Below are positions 19,827-26,476 of a stretch of DNA of 64,000 nt, piece after piece. The notes below the pieces were generated by a model. It did not search any database, was not told the origin of the DNA, and saw nothing but the letters and a program-made list of their open reading frames with translations. Made by a program: the position numbers and the translations under genes. How positions within the stretch are numbered: the stretch's first letter is position 1; every line of letters starts with the position of its first letter. The DNA is from Microbacterium sp. SY138 (GTDB lineage: Bacteria > Actinomycetota > Actinomycetes > Actinomycetales > Microbacteriaceae), in contig NZ_CP155793.1 in assembly GCF_039729145.1 (NCBI RefSeq), positions 3,286,001 through 3,350,000 on the forward strand. Reading direction: 5' to 3'.

Positions 19827-22361
<2,535 letters not shown>

Positions 22362-22375
22362 GCTGTGACTCCTTA

Positions 22376-22390
22376 TTCGCACGGGGCGAA
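22376..22390. promoter_or_regulatory. ClgR-like box upstream of clpC
   Basis: TTCGC-N5-GCGAA, a perfect 5+5 palindrome matching the core of the ClgR site, GTTCGC-N5-GCGAAC. It is centred 22 bp upstream of the clpC ATG. ClgR activates clp genes in Streptomyces, Corynebacterium and Mycobacterium. Confidence 0.6.
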
Positions 22391-22451
22391 GCGCTGACAC
22401 CTGTGGCGTTCTCTGCGCCTGTACATCGAGAGTAACCACCGTGCGGGGCAC

Positions 22452-22478
22452 GTATGCCCGTGTTCGCCGTGGGCATAC
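22452..22478. promoter_or_regulatory. inverted repeat GTATGCCC / GGGCATAC
   Basis: Perfect 8-bp arms around an 11-base centre that contains GTTCGCC, about 100 bp upstream of clpC. It could be a second regulator site for clpC. A GTCAACCCCC stretch on the minus strand follows directly (22490-22481). Confidence 0.4.
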
Positions 22479-22484
22479 CGGGGG

Positions 22485-22529
22485 TTGACCGAGTTATCGA
22501 CAGTCGTTATGTTAACGACTGTCGATAAC
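22485..22529 (+). promoter_or_regulatory. promoter buried in a 37-bp perfect palindrome (operator of the DUF2975/Xre operon)
   Basis: TTGACC (22485-22490), 17 bp, then TATGTT (22508-22513) form a sigma-A promoter for the genes from 22567. Positions 22493-22529 form a perfect palindrome: arm GTTATCGACAGTCGTTA, centre TGT, arm TAACGACTGTCGATAAC. Each arm is itself nearly palindromic (TAnCGACnGTCGnTA). So the site can also be seen as two operators 18 bp apart. It covers the spacer, the -10 and the start point, so a bound repressor would block transcription. The Xre protein at the end of the operon is the natural candidate. Confidence 0.75.
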
Positions 22530-22566
22530 AACGAGTCCGGAGCGGACCGTGCAGGAGGGGGACGAA

Positions 22567-23196
22567 ATGACCGAGGCACCGACGGCGACCAGAGCTGCGA
22601 GCCTGGTGGAGAAGACCGTCCTTGGCGTCATCGCCGGAGTAGCGGGGGCCATAGCCGTGGTCGATCTGGTCGGCGTCAGCATCCGCTCCGCCGTCCTCGT
22701 GACGAGCCCGGCGATCACGATTCCATCGATGCGGCTGCGGTCGGTCGACGCACCCGCGGTGCTCGCGGCATCCTCCAACATCTCCGAAGCGCAGTACGAC
22801 ACCGTCACGCTCACGACCGTGGGCCTGAGCCTGTCTCCCCGCCTGCTGCTCGCGATCGCCGACGGACTGGCGGTCCTGGGACCGATCGTGCTGTGCATCG
22901 CGGTCGCGTGGCTGTGCGTCCGTCTCTTCATCGGCCGCCCCTTCGGCACGGCGGCCACCTGGGGGATCGGCGTCGCAGCCATCACCGTCATGGCGGGTGG
23001 TCTGCTGAGCCAGGCCGTGCGCGCCAACGCGTTCAGCGAGATCGCCTACGAGCTGGACCTCGCATCCGCGGGAGTCCCCACATTCGAGATGTCGATCGAC
23101 CTCGCTCCACTCGGTTGGGCATTCGCGCTCGCGGTGGTCGCCGGCGCCTTCGAGATCGGTCAGCGTCTGCAGCGCGACACGGAAGGCCTCGTCTGA
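22567..23196 (+). CDS. DUF2975-like membrane protein (first of three paralogs)
   Basis: A 209-residue protein with about four membrane helices (about 15-37, 98-120, 128-150, 175-197) and a short outward loop (30-95). ALADG-like helix LLLAIADGLAVLGPIVLCI followed by WLCVRLFIGRPFGTAATWG recalls the DUF2975 family, usually found next to a small Xre regulator as here. It ends with RLQRDTEGLV, a tail shared by the next two proteins. Its stop overlaps the next ATG by one base (TGATG). Function unknown; related pairs are common in Gram-positive bacteria. Confidence 0.75.
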   Translation: MTEAPTATRAASLVEKTVLGVIAGVAGAIAVVDLVGVSIRSAVLVTSPAITIPSMRLRSVDAPAVLAASSNISEAQYDTVTLTTVGLSLSPRLLLAIADGLAVLGPIVLCIAVAWLCVRLFIGRPFGTAATWGIGVAAITVMAGGLLSQAVRANAFSEIAYELDLASAGVPTFEMSIDLAPLGWAFALAVVAGAFEIGQRLQRDTEGLV

Positions 23197-23831
23197 TGAC
23201 CAGCACCACCAACGCGCGCTCCGAGAAGGCGGATGCGATCACCGTGATCCTGTACGCCGCCGTGGCGCTGGTCACGGTCGGGCTCGCCACCGTTCTGCGC
23301 GTCGGCAGCACCTTCCGCGAGACCGGGATCGCTTGGACGGTCCCGATCGACCAGCAGCCGATCTCCGCCACGACCGACTCCGGTGCCATCTCGATCGAGG
23401 GGTTCGCGGACGAGGCGATGGTCATCGCCGACGGGGTGAACGCGGCCTCGGTCACGGCCATCATCGCCGCCATCGCGCTGTGGGCTCTCGCGGCCGTCGC
23501 GGTCATCGCGGCGGTGACGCTGGTCGCCTGGAACTTCCTCCGCGGACGCTTCTTCGTCCGTCCGAACGCGCGAGCCTTCGACGTGATCGGTTGGACGCTC
23601 GTCGGCGCTCCGATCCTGATCGTGATGTTGGAGACGATGGGCCGCAACGGCGTCACCTCCGCTCTCGGCATCGGCGACGGGGAACCGGTGCATCCGATCG
23701 AGTTCTGGAGCGTCGCGCCGATCTTCGCCACCGGGGTGACGGTGGGTCTGATCGCGGTGGCATTCCGCCGCGGCATCCGGTTACAGAACGAGAAGCTCGC
23801 GCTCGAGAAGGAAACGGAAGGACTCGTCTGA
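23196..23831 (+). CDS. DUF2975-like membrane protein (second of three paralogs)
   Basis: A 211-residue protein with four predicted membrane helices (about 14-35, 84-112, 130-150, 178-197). FLRGRFFVRPNARAFDVIGW corresponds to the loop after the second helix in its neighbours. The basic segment FRRGIRLQNEKLALEKETEGLV (first half within the last 25 residues) ends with ETEGLV. Start ATG and previous stop share one base, as do its stop and the next ATG, so all are translated together. Function unknown. Confidence 0.75.
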   Translation: MTSTTNARSEKADAITVILYAAVALVTVGLATVLRVGSTFRETGIAWTVPIDQQPISATTDSGAISIEGFADEAMVIADGVNAASVTAIIAAIALWALAAVAVIAAVTLVAWNFLRGRFFVRPNARAFDVIGWTLVGAPILIVMLETMGRNGVTSALGIGDGEPVHPIEFWSVAPIFATGVTVGLIAVAFRRGIRLQNEKLALEKETEGLV

Positions 23832-24604
23832 TGCTCAGCTTCGGTTCGGACGAGGTGTGGCCGTCCCTGCTCAACATCGGGATCGCGCTCGCGGTGATCG
23901 CGGTCATCCTCGGTGTCGTCGTGTGGAGAGGGCGCCGGAGGGGCAGCCGCACGATCGCGCTCGACGCGGCACTCACGCTCTCCGGGTGGTGGATCCTGAT
24001 GTCGGCGGTGGGCGCTGTGATCTACATCTTCAAGGCGTTCACCGTCCCCTGGGCGGAGTTCGACGGTCAGACCCACGTGTATCTGGATTGGCCGGCCGGT
24101 CTGGCGTGCTCGGAGTTCGGTGACAGCGCAACGACGATGCTGACCTGTGGCAGCGAGCAGCTCTCCGAGTTCACTGTCGGCCAGGCGTCGCTGGAGCTCC
24201 GGCTGCTCGCGGCGTCCGCACAACTGAGCAGCCTTGCTCTGGCCACCATGCCCGCGGTCATCGTGGCGGTCATCTGCTTCCAGACGTTGCGGGGCCGCGC
24301 GTTCTCACGCTCCGTGACGCGTGGCCTCACCGGCGGCGCGATCGCCGTGCTCGTGTTCGGCGTGGCGGCCGACCTCCTGAGCGGTATCGCAGCCACAGCC
24401 GGCCTTCGCGAGGTCTTCTCACCGGACAGCGAGTGGTACCCATCGTTCTACCAACTGACCGTCACGCCGCTCCCCTTCGTCGGCGCGCTCGGGCTGCTCG
24501 CTCTCGCCGCCGTGTTCCGTCAGGGCACACGTCTCGAGCAGGAAAGGGCGCAACTGCAGCAGGAGAAGGCGGTTCTCGAGAAGGACACGGAGGGACTGGT
24601 GTGA
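23831..24604 (+). CDS. DUF2975-like membrane protein (third of three paralogs)
   Basis: A 257-residue protein, longer than its two relatives by an outward segment with two Cys (about residues 84-115: LACSEF and MLTCGSEQL), which could form a disulfide. There are four to five membrane helices. CFQTLRGRAFSRSVTRGLTG matches the positive loop of the paralogs. A C-terminal coiled segment with EQERAQLQQEKAVLEKDTEGLV-type repeats (last about 22 residues) ends with the shared DTEGLV. GTGA overlap with the Xre gene. Function unknown. Confidence 0.75.
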   Translation: MLSFGSDEVWPSLLNIGIALAVIAVILGVVVWRGRRRGSRTIALDAALTLSGWWILMSAVGAVIYIFKAFTVPWAEFDGQTHVYLDWPAGLACSEFGDSATTMLTCGSEQLSEFTVGQASLELRLLAASAQLSSLALATMPAVIVAVICFQTLRGRAFSRSVTRGLTGGAIAVLVFGVAADLLSGIAATAGLREVFSPDSEWYPSFYQLTVTPLPFVGALGLLALAAVFRQGTRLEQERAQLQQEKAVLEKDTEGLV

Positions 24605-24837
24605 GCCCGGCGGAGAGCGACGACGAGTTCACCGGCATCCACTGCCGACTCGACGAGCTGCTCGCCGAACGCGGCATGACGCTCACCGAGCTGAGCGCCG
24701 CGGTCGGGGTGAGCATCGTGAACCTGTCGGTGCTGAAGAACGACCGCGCCCGTGCCATCCGCTACTCCACGCTGCGCGCGATCTGCGAGGCCCTCGACTG
24801 CGAGGTCGGCGAGCTGCTGGTGCTCGCCCCGCGCTGA
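24601..24837 (+). CDS. Xre-family helix-turn-helix regulator
   Basis: A 78-residue single-domain regulator starting from GTG 24601, coupled by GTGA to the third membrane gene. The helix-turn-helix is MTLTELSAAVGVSIVNLSVL followed by KNDRARAIRYSTLRAICEAL and DCEVGELLVL, the usual ending of small YozG-like Xre proteins found with DUF2975. It probably binds the palindrome at 22493-22529 and represses its own operon, with the membrane proteins perhaps sequestering or controlling it (inference). Confidence 0.85.
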   Translation: MSPAESDDEFTGIHCRLDELLAERGMTLTELSAAVGVSIVNLSVLKNDRARAIRYSTLRAICEALDCEVGELLVLAPR

Positions 24838-24852
24838 CGGGGAACGCTCCCG

Positions 24853-24907
24853 CCGGTCGCAGTTCCTGCCGCCCGTGGCGCGTTCAGGCGGCAGGAAGTG
24901 CGACCGG
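24853..24907. repeat. long near-perfect hairpin (21-bp arms)
   Basis: The left arm at 24853-24873 (CCGGTCGCAGTTCCTGCCGCC is 21 bases; key halves CCGGTCGCA and TTCCTGCCGCC) pairs with the right arm at 24887-24907. There is a single mismatch and a 13-base loop. It lies 15 bp after the Xre stop. It may be a terminator, or a copy of a dispersed palindromic repeat because the arms contain a peculiar GGCAGGAA core. No U-tract. Confidence 0.6.
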
Positions 24908-25051
24908 AACCGGGCCTCCCCGCCGCACCGAACGGATTCCGGCTCACAACGTCATCCTTCGTCATATCCACCCAGGGAATTCTCAGGGAGTCATAGCGTT
25001 GGGCCTCATGGCGCGCACACGGTGCGCCGCGATTCTGGAGTCCCCACCCTC

Positions 25052-26476
25052 ATGAGCACCACCGCACGCGCCCAGAAGGCGCCTGATACCCGCGGACCGG
25101 TCCGGAAGCTGCTGACCTCGTTCGGCTTCCAGATCCTCGCCGCTCTCGTCCTCGGCATCGCCGCCGGTCTGATCGGCCGCCAGCTCGGCGCGACCGCCGA
25201 GAACCCGACCGGGCTGTCCGCGACACTCGACACCATCGGCAACTCGTATGTGACGCTGCTGCGCGCCGCCGTGGTCCCCCTGATCTTCACAGCGATCGTC
25301 GCCAGCATCTCGAACCTGCGTCGCGTGCAGAACGCCGCACGCCTGGCGGGCCAGACGATCCTGTGGTTCGCGATCACCGCGTTCATCGCCGTGATCATCG
25401 GCATCGTCCTCGGCCTCGTGATCCAGCCCGGCAACCGCGCCGGTGAGGGCCTCGAACCGGGCGACCCGTACACCGTGGGCACCTGGTGGAACTTCCTGCT
25501 CGGGCTCATCCCGCAGAACTTCCTCGGCCTCACCGTGAGCACCAACCCCGGAGCGGCTGAGGGCACCTTCTCGTCGAGCGTCGGCTTCAACATCCTGCAG
25601 GTCATCGTGGTCGCGGCCGTCGTCGGCATCGCCGCACTCAAGGCCGGCAAGAAGGCGGAGCCGTTCCTCGTCTTCACCGAGTCGCTGCTGAAGGTCATCC
25701 AGCGCGTGCTGTGGTGGATCATCCGCATCGCCCCGCTCGGCACGTTCGGCCTCATCGGCTCTGCGGTCATCAAGTACGGCTGGGAGAAGCTCGCCTCCCT
25801 CGGCTGGTTCGCCGCCGCCGTCTACATCGGTCTGGCCCTCGTGCTGTTCGTGGTCTACCCGATCCTCGTGCGCACGCACGGCCTCTCGATCAAGCAGTAC
25901 TTCTCGGGCGTCTGGCCCGCCGTGCAGCTGGCCTTCGTCAGCCGCTCCTCGATCGGCACCCTGCCGCTCACCGAGCGCGTGACCGAGCGCAACCTCGGTG
26001 TGCCCCGCTCGTACGCCTCGTTCGCCGTGCCGCTGGGCGCGACGACCAAGATGGACGGCTGCGCCGCGATCTACCCGGCCATCGCCGCGATCTTCGTCGC
26101 GCAGTTCTTCGGCATCGAGCTGAACTTCGTGCAGTACCTGCTGATCGTCATCGTCTCGGTCGTCGGCTCGGCCGCCACCGCCGGCACCACGGGTGCTGTG
26201 GTGATGCTCACGCTGACGCTGTCGACCCTGGGGCTGCCGCTCGAGGGCGTCGGGCTGCTGCTCGCGATCGACCCGATCCTCGACATGGGCCGCACGGCGG
26301 TCAACGTCGCCGGTCAGGCGCTGATCCCGACGATCGTCGCCAAGCGCGAGGGCATCCTGAACGAGGAGCTCTACAACGCGCCGCGTGAGGGCCTGCCCTT
26401 CGCCGACGACTCCGGAGACGACGACGCTCCCGAAGCGGATGCCTCCGCCGACAAGGAACCGGTCAGCGCCCGCTGA
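25052..26476 (+). CDS. dicarboxylate/amino acid:cation symporter (DAACS family)
   Basis: A 474-residue transporter with eight helices and two re-entrant loops. The loop motifs are RSSIGTLPLTERV (the serine-rich HP1 tip), GATTKMDGCA (helix 7, NMDGT-like) and GSAATAGTTGAVVM (HP2); DPILDMGRTAVNVAGQA carries the substrate-binding Asp/Arg region of helix 8. These fit sodium- or proton-coupled symport of C4-dicarboxylates or acidic amino acids. The tail is acidic and disordered. ATG 25052 has GGAG 12 nt upstream. Monocistronic, with a strong terminator behind it. Confidence 0.9.
   Translation: MSTTARAQKAPDTRGPVRKLLTSFGFQILAALVLGIAAGLIGRQLGATAENPTGLSATLDTIGNSYVTLLRAAVVPLIFTAIVASISNLRRVQNAARLAGQTILWFAITAFIAVIIGIVLGLVIQPGNRAGEGLEPGDPYTVGTWWNFLLGLIPQNFLGLTVSTNPGAAEGTFSSSVGFNILQVIVVAAVVGIAALKAGKKAEPFLVFTESLLKVIQRVLWWIIRIAPLGTFGLIGSAVIKYGWEKLASLGWFAAAVYIGLALVLFVVYPILVRTHGLSIKQYFSGVWPAVQLAFVSRSSIGTLPLTERVTERNLGVPRSYASFAVPLGATTKMDGCAAIYPAIAAIFVAQFFGIELNFVQYLLIVIVSVVGSAATAGTTGAVVMLTLTLSTLGLPLEGVGLLLAIDPILDMGRTAVNVAGQALIPTIVAKREGILNEELYNAPREGLPFADDSGDDDAPEADASADKEPVSAR

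Follow-up and report, generated by a model that had tools for sequence, protein, structure and literature searches.

A clpC-linked operon of Microbacterium with a conserved predicted operator, an HTH_26 regulator gene and exchangeable tail-bearing membrane genes

Microbacterium sp. SY138 carries, beside the protease gene clpC, a four-gene operon that consists of three membrane-protein genes and a closing gene for a small helix-turn-helix (HTH) regulator of the HTH_26 family (YozG-like Xre). The operon lies in the 64,000-nucleotide stretch of contig NZ_CP155793.1 analysed here (positions 3,286,001 to 3,350,000, hereafter the window; coordinates below are counted from its first letter), between clpC and a symporter-like gene, the latter assigned by eye. 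Comparison with relatives in the genus, the family and more distant bacteria indicates that a predicted operator before the first gene is conserved, that the membrane proteins share a C-terminal tail linked to the neighboring HTH gene, and that the membrane genes themselves turn over combinatorially between the predicted operator and the putative repressor gene, a pattern for which we propose an autorepressor mechanism.

The operon and its predicted operator

The open reading frame (ORF) coordinates of the four plus-strand genes agree with an earlier note on this DNA, made from its letters alone, which had described three membrane genes and a small Xre gene joined by overlaps of 1-4 bp: the junctions overlap by 1 bp (TGATG) and by 4 bp. 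The note had also placed a promoter, TTGACC-17-TATGTT, inside a 37-bp perfect palindrome with 17-bp arms around TGT, and the repeat is indeed present, its two 17-nt arms (22493-22509 and 22513-22529) being 100% complementary across the 3-nt spacer. Such a palindrome is far beyond chance, a rough hand estimate putting the expectation for 64 kb at about 1e-5 to 1e-4 for each spacer length. Each arm is nearly palindromic itself, as the note had remarked, and the whole can be read as a 15-bp unit, TAWCG-N5-CGWTA, present twice, in the form of the pseudo-palindromes TATCGACAGTCGTTA and TAACGACTGTCGATA; exact matches to this pattern number three in the 3.92-Mb single-contig genome, two of them being the palindrome arms. 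The palindrome covers the spacer and the -10 element of the promoter-like site, which is the only such match in 22300-25060 (shuffle mean 0.2); TTGAC stands upstream of the first unit in many relatives as well.

Conservation of the unit was assessed in 161 loci, 121 from the genus (window included) and 40 from other genera of the family. Sixty of the genus loci were drawn from 76 non-own genomes with a gene 3 match and a further 60 from not-yet-sampled genomes among the gene 4 matches listed, and the other-genus loci were drawn from 132 matching family genomes; a unit was counted at 9/10 positions or better unless it is called exact. Within -200 to +90 of the first gene a unit occurs in 152 of 159 loci (the 161 minus two without a called membrane gene), and 147 of the 159 have two or three, spaced by 18+16 bp in 64 loci, by 16 bp alone in 57 and by 18 bp alone in 16. 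The concentration is local: 370 units fall in 46,036 bp near the first gene versus 46 in 1,645,293 bp elsewhere (159 loci), and in 60 loci plus the window there are 144 in 25,620 bp beside clpC versus 14 in 737,937 bp elsewhere. Some of the seven loci without a unit are explained by first-gene start codons having been set by rule, and L062, L084 and L089, counted as lacking one near the first gene, carry units in the clpC-side scan. The third unit overlaps the Shine-Dalgarno sequence in many relatives and is decayed in the window. In L040, L041, L044, L045, L047, L048 and L049 lone units lie some 2.8-3.5 kb away from where clpC starts; they were set aside as chance or another element, because they have a TAGCG reading, lack a partner unit and stand shortly before the next gene.

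Three wider samples extend the comparison: 48 DUF2975 loci of the class (the 28 best-scoring and 20 weaker ones picked by hand); 30 DUF2975 loci of the phylum, 28 of them with an HTH gene (two of the 28 near-identical); and 80 loci of named genomes found through an HTH alignment, most of them from Firmicutes, Bacteroidota and Alphaproteobacteria, the remainder being some Actinobacteria and members of other groups. L153 and L154, weak PF11188 matches without an HTH gene, were left out of use. The unit is present in 28 of 44 HTH-bearing class loci, in 21 of the 28 phylum loci and in 51 of the 80 named-genome loci of several phyla; in Firmicutes, Bacteroidota and Alphaproteobacteria it precedes many pairs of DUF2975 and HTH_26 genes. 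The exact pattern TATYG-N5-CRATA stands upstream in 47 of 72 usable named loci and nowhere in the 167,031 bp of downstream sequence used as control; in shuffled sequence an average of 0.12 of the 72 loci had it, and the motif was the best of 60 half-site permutations. The note's picture of a compact membrane/HTH module with a promoter-embedded operator is borne out by this phylogenetic conservation of the predicted operator.

Table 1. Features of the clpC-operon region in the window
Feature	Position	Strand	Remark
Gene 1: membrane protein, 209 amino acids, C-terminus RDTEGLV, type 12	22567..23196	+	
Gene 2: DUF2975-like membrane protein, 211 amino acids, C-terminus KETEGLV, type 3	23196..23831	+	
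Gene 3: DUF2975-like membrane protein, 257 amino acids, C-terminus KDTEGLV, type 5	23831..24604	+	
Gene 4: HTH_26 (YozG-like Xre) regulator, 78 amino acids, GTG start	24601..24837	+	PF13443
clpC, divergent neighbor of the operon	19827..22361	-	start at 22361
Promoter-like site TTGACC-17-TATGTT	22485..22513	+	sigma-70-like scan
37-bp palindrome, predicted tandem operator	22493..22529		17-nt perfect arms, spacer TGT
Predicted operator unit 1, TATCGACAGTCGTTA	22495..22509		
Predicted operator unit 2, TAACGACTGTCGATA	22513..22527		centre 18 bp from unit 1
Third-unit position of many relatives (16 bp on, CAACG-N5-CGATA)	22529..22543		window retains CAACG only
Shine-Dalgarno sequence AGGAGGG of gene 1	22553..22559	+	by eye
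Strong hairpin 3' of the operon, possible transcript end	24853..24907	+	no T-run

The shared tail, the regulator and the membrane proteins

Across 272 membrane proteins of the genus and family the final L is kept in about 100% and the final V in about 98%, positions at which the tail rule used in gene finding allowed other residues. Without that rule, 152 of 157 loci (from 161 examined) have an ORF directly before the HTH gene that ends [GAL]L[VI], and two of the five misses, L083 and L185, are mis-picked frames for which the copy-number survey found tails. All of the 120 database relatives of gene 3 listed end GL[VI]; for a canonical DUF2975 protein, 40 relatives have DLV[VI] as their last residues. 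An adjacent HTH gene is present in 44 of the 48 class loci, all with an acidic/aliphatic end (43 by regular expression, the 44th being QDDVVGMV); the four HTH-less DUF2975 proteins end HTDHRRPC, EGLEPPTF, ILRADSLI (borderline) and QTRVSPAA, and no unit was found at any of them. In the named loci, 72 of 78 upstream ORFs end LTI, LTV or similar. These comparisons establish, at the level of sequence, both the conservation of the tail and its association with a neighboring HTH gene.

Gene 4 scores 64.5 bits (E 1.1e-17) against HTH_26, well above the gathering cut-off of 22 bits, and its product has matches at E <= 1e-3 in 195 of 198 genus genomes (180 of 180 good genomes), mostly below 1e-30. The HTH gene closes the operon in 60 loci examined, and it is well conserved across Firmicutes, Bacteroidota, Alphaproteobacteria and other sampled groups; as the adjacent regulator it would be the simplest candidate binder of the units. 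Solved structures searched by sequence returned weak Xre matches only. A defence function was considered and dropped, because PADLOC returned no model for genes 1-3 and, for gene 4, only two weak ones of HTH type. The features by which we recognize the module are present together in the window: a predicted operator TAWCG-N5-CGWTA before the first membrane gene, an acidic/aliphatic tail on each membrane protein, and an HTH_26 gene directly downstream of the membrane genes. As separate observations, the genus members L135, L137 and L139 (genomes G043, G034 and G045) have, in another part of the genome, an additional DUF2975-HTH pair of the canonical kind, which has a unit of its own and a tail of the ELxEV[IV] type. 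Relatives of the HTH_26 protein (query from L140, E <= 1e-12) are also present on plasmids, in 172 records, of which Klebsiella accounts for 64 and Streptomyces for 29.

The note had called genes 1-3 DUF2975 paralogs, and of this claim the relatedness is supported, as is a match of the gene-2 type to DUF2975; none of the three reaches the Pfam cut-off. Against PF11188 (DUF2975; gathering cut-off 27 bits) gene 1 has no match, gene 2 scores 17.7 bits and gene 3 16 bits, and a search of the window's whole genome found no PF11188 match at E <= 0.001. By pairwise BLAST, genes 2 and 3 match at E 1e-6, genes 1 and 3 at 0.002 and genes 1 and 2 at 0.026 (tail only). In profile-profile comparison with a set of 83 DUF2975 sequences, partly picked by their tails, the gene-2 type scored 95% (E 1.9e-8), and the gene-1 and gene-3 types, at 0.4% and 6.4%, had no direct match; these two scored 93% (3 sequences only) and 98%, respectively, against the gene-2 type. 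We call the three genes a diverged branch of DUF2975. That family is common, PF11188 being found in 150 of 393 class genomes and 33 of 296 phylum genomes, and genomes of Bacillus subtilis and Corynebacterium glutamicum also have PF11188 matches.

An AlphaFold2 model of gene 3 (predicted local distance difference test score 79.7, predicted template modelling score 0.71) is built of five long helices; short strands lie in the stretch that joins helices 2 and 3, and the loop between these two helices shows the highest mean column entropy in the protein (1.52). F158 and G232 of gene 3 are kept in 98% of the 272 genus and family proteins, and most other columns are poorly kept. A search by sequence found no solved homologue of gene 3 (best E 0.45), and no PDB match gave a known fold for it at E <= 0.001; the resemblance to a claudin/TARP-like theme, a four-helix fold with ectodomain strands, is weak and perhaps reflects a common arrangement.

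Turnover of the membrane genes beside clpC

The place of the module beside clpC, as the note had it, is nearly constant: a divergent clpC lies upstream in 120 of the 121 genus loci and in 35 of the 40 other-genus loci, and three of the six loci without it (L178, L255 and L233) come from stretches that are short or truncated. Close gene 3 matches in the protein database carry Microbacterium names, and gene 3 has matches in 77 of the 198 genus genomes. The membrane genes were found for the copy counts and the junction analysis by a rule that includes the tail. Counted in this way, the genus operons (n=121) have one membrane gene in 39 cases, two in 60, three in 21 and four in one, and those of other genera (n=40) have one in 31, two in six, three in one and none called in two. 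Because the loci were sampled via gene 3 and gene 4 matches, these fractions are not genus frequencies; even so, the note's view that a triple set is unusual does not hold, with 21 of the 121 sampled genus operons having three in a range of one to four. Unrelated genes in place of the paralogs were not seen in the sampled loci, other members of the same superfamily standing there instead.

Identity to the window falls steeply from the flanks to the membrane genes, the genus medians being 94% for ClpC, 84% for the HTH protein and 31-33% for the best membrane match, and the 226 membrane genes form 54 types. The relatives closest in ClpC illustrate this. One with 99.8% ClpC and 96% HTH identity (L035) has a different first gene (38%), lacks the second and retains the third at 90%; another (L155; ClpC 99.4%) lacks the third gene and matches the first at 83% and the second at 82%; in L156 (ClpC 99.3%) only the second gene is common to the window, at 95%; and L071 (ClpC 98.0%) has a single membrane gene of 30% identity or less. 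Written as a string of types, the window reads [12,3,5], and its fifteen next relatives ranked by ClpC identity read [1,5], [1,3,5], [1,3,5], [12,3], [0,3], [1,3,5], [1,5] and [1,5] (relatives 1-8) and [0,3,5], [1,5], [0,3], [1,3,5], [0,5], [36] and [0] (relatives 9-15), such that among the nearest relatives the first slot has at least three alternatives and the second and third members are optional. Across 39 genus pairs with ClpC identity of at least 99.5% (non-independent pairs, compared without a control locus), 36% have the same type string and 64% differ, 38% differ in copy number and 23% have no common type. As far as sequence comparison reaches, the membrane genes turn over combinatorially between a conserved predicted operator and the putative repressor gene. 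In L077 (genome G001) a gene-3-like frame matches over only its first 46 or so residues and has an in-frame stop; the locus also carries one membrane gene that seems to be whole, and the broken frame is perhaps a decayed cassette member.

A proposed mechanism and its alternatives

We hypothesize, and consider it probable, that the HTH_26 protein acts as an autorepressor at the promoter of its operon, under the control of exchangeable membrane proteins that dock on it through their tails, a reading that may overlap with a role in immunity. HTH_26 dimers would bind the 15-bp units between the -35 element and the start of gene 1 and repress the operon, which is probably their main or only target. 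The membrane proteins would expose a variable ectodomain outside the cell and present inside it a conserved face formed by an RGRxF loop and the C-terminal tail LQRDTEGLV; with the tail as docking peptide, any membrane protein of the operon could hold or release the single repressor, whatever its ectodomain. A ligand or membrane disturbance sensed by any of them would lift repression, and therefore, we propose, more membrane protein would be made. Since only the tail would have to fit the repressor, ectodomain genes could be lost, gained and exchanged with the operator and repressor remaining near-constant. DNA binding, repression, topology, docking and signal are parts of this scheme that we infer from sequence. 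Were the operon the sole target, its membrane proteins would either combine the roles of sensor and effector or be effectors of an immunity-like kind. A broader version is doubtful: that of a pan-bacterial system of one repressor and many receptors, in which an HTH_26 switch acting at a shared operator would respond to whichever membrane protein bears its docking tail, and in which lineages would swap ectodomains combinatorially to follow changes in extracellular agents, for instance the toxins of competitors.

Several observations weigh against the autorepressor hypothesis. The genome has 59 sites within one mismatch of the unit versus 26 for a reversed control pattern, and further genomic targets beyond the operon itself may exist. 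The unit is missing in 16 of the 44 HTH-bearing class loci and in 7 of the 28 phylum loci, three of which have GATTGAC variants at 8/10, and the exact unit is missing in 25 of the 72 named loci (L317, L346 and L348 have one just outside the scanned stretch). About 40 of the 198 genus genomes have a weak HTH match or none. The tail is part of the gene-finding rule in the copy counts and junctions (the tail tests on ORFs before the HTH gene, database relatives, named loci and class loci were free of it), and in the window the tail DNA also contains the Shine-Dalgarno sequence of the next gene. The HTH-less DUF2975 sample comprises four genes, two of them weak family matches; the L252 frame runs on past DTEGLV without a stop, as an exception or a sequencing error; L249 has no called tail gene; and L210 has a 352-nt gap before the HTH gene. 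The position of the variable loop outside the cell, finally, is read from the helix pattern.

Unlikely, and compatible with autorepression through the tail, is the alternative that the membrane proteins are exchangeable immunity or protective effectors against competitors' membrane-active toxins or antibiotics, induced through the HTH protein in an SdpI-like role. It would fit the lack of a second strong operator in the genome, the turnover of membrane genes between nearly identical species and the variability of the helix 2-3 loop of gene 3. The SdpRI system (PMC6818787) offers a precedent in which the gene of an immunity membrane protein is accompanied by that of its repressor, and the gene table of a Streptomyces cacaoi peptide-antibiotic cluster lists a DUF2975-HTH pair, cppC-cppD. 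However, this alternative leaves the clpC linkage unexplained, and genes 1-3 match no SdpI-type or other immunity family of Pfam or NCBIfam, nor gene 4 an ArsR type (E <= 1), no systematic search of the surroundings for toxin genes having been made. A membrane toxin with an Xre antitoxin is very unlikely. The operon is compact and has its own predicted operator, and Makarova et al. 2009 list Xre with a YoaS-like membrane protein ("likely permease", 32 occurrences), although they set these pairs aside because of the membrane part; but the HTH gene comes last, genes 1-3 have no PADLOC match, and several membrane paralogs per HTH gene at a constant chromosomal place beside clpC disfavor an addiction module.

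Two further explanations concern the tail. It is highly improbable that the tail is kept merely because its DNA (GARGG) serves as the Shine-Dalgarno sequence of the overlapping next gene. Most junction gaps are indeed -4 or -1, and the TEG codons of the window give GGAAGG or GGAGGG at the right position; yet the final L and V are kept in 12 of 12 junctions with gaps above 15 bp (partly preselected by the tail rule), NDLTI-type tails in other phyla cannot, by the genetic code, encode GGAGG, and the tail is absent or nearly so from DUF2975 proteins at the four HTH-less loci. We reject a pure Shine-Dalgarno effect on these three grounds. Most improbable of all is that the module serves ClpC, either with the HTH protein also controlling clpC or with the GLV tails acting as ClpC degrons. 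The near-constant linkage described above speaks for it; against it, it is the promoter of the operon that the units overlap, some 130 bp away from where clpC starts, and none of 158 loci outside the genus and family sample has a clpC-like gene in flanks of about 1.5-2.5 kb, although most have the tail and many the unit. Because the tail goes with the HTH gene and these outside loci lack a nearby clpC, we tie it to the HTH protein and reject ClpC as its partner.

Among known systems, the locus resembles the YozG-YoaS-like pairs of HTH_26 (PF13443) and DUF2975 (PF11188) genes, YozG and YoaS being a pair that we take to be a single one in Bacillus subtilis: an HTH gene of the same family directly follows the membrane gene, most have the operator unit, and the C-terminal tail is of the same kind. 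By contrast, the window module belongs to a group with one to four exchangeable membrane genes, tandem 18/16-bp operators and a fixed place by clpC, and its genes 1-3 score below the Pfam cut-off. The LytTR systems HdrRM and BrsRM of Streptococcus mutans likewise encode a small DNA-binding protein with an antagonising membrane protein; they differ in that the regulator is a LytTR activator, not Xre, and the membrane proteins are unrelated. ClgR is an Xre activator of clp genes in actinobacteria, and gene 4 is likewise a small Xre-type HTH protein beside a clp gene, with weak similarity; unlike ClgR, it lies within a membrane-protein operon and far below the family cut-off (21 bits against NF041677, cut-off 170). 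In the Sdp system the SdpI membrane protein, of the SdpI family, controls SdpR, an ArsR-type repressor. SdpR-SdpI of B. subtilis is also an operon of a membrane protein and its own repressor (PMC6818787), whereas the window has HTH_26 and DUF2975-like proteins.

DUF2975 is widespread and, in the loci examined, nearly always stands beside an HTH_26 gene; it is barely mentioned, and YozG only in passing, in the open-access literature searched, where (most subscription journals lying outside this coverage) no report of a mechanism, operator, tail or gene exchange was found. This looks like a common yet unstudied control system. With an operator and a six-residue tail both defined, "unknown function" gives way to directly testable hypotheses, and, if the proposal is true, the exchange of membrane genes within near-constant flanks would represent a new case of bacterial modular sensing or immunity.

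Two structures adjoin the operon. The hairpin behind it, which was not among the matches of a terminator scan, is strong (-62.1 kcal/mol for the fold of 24835-24930, z -4.85). The spacer between clpC and the operon holds a second dyad at 22452-22478, GTATGCCC-N11-GGGCATAC around TGTTCGCCGTG, whose core TGTTCGCCGT is retained in the nine relatives compared and which looks like a control element of clpC.

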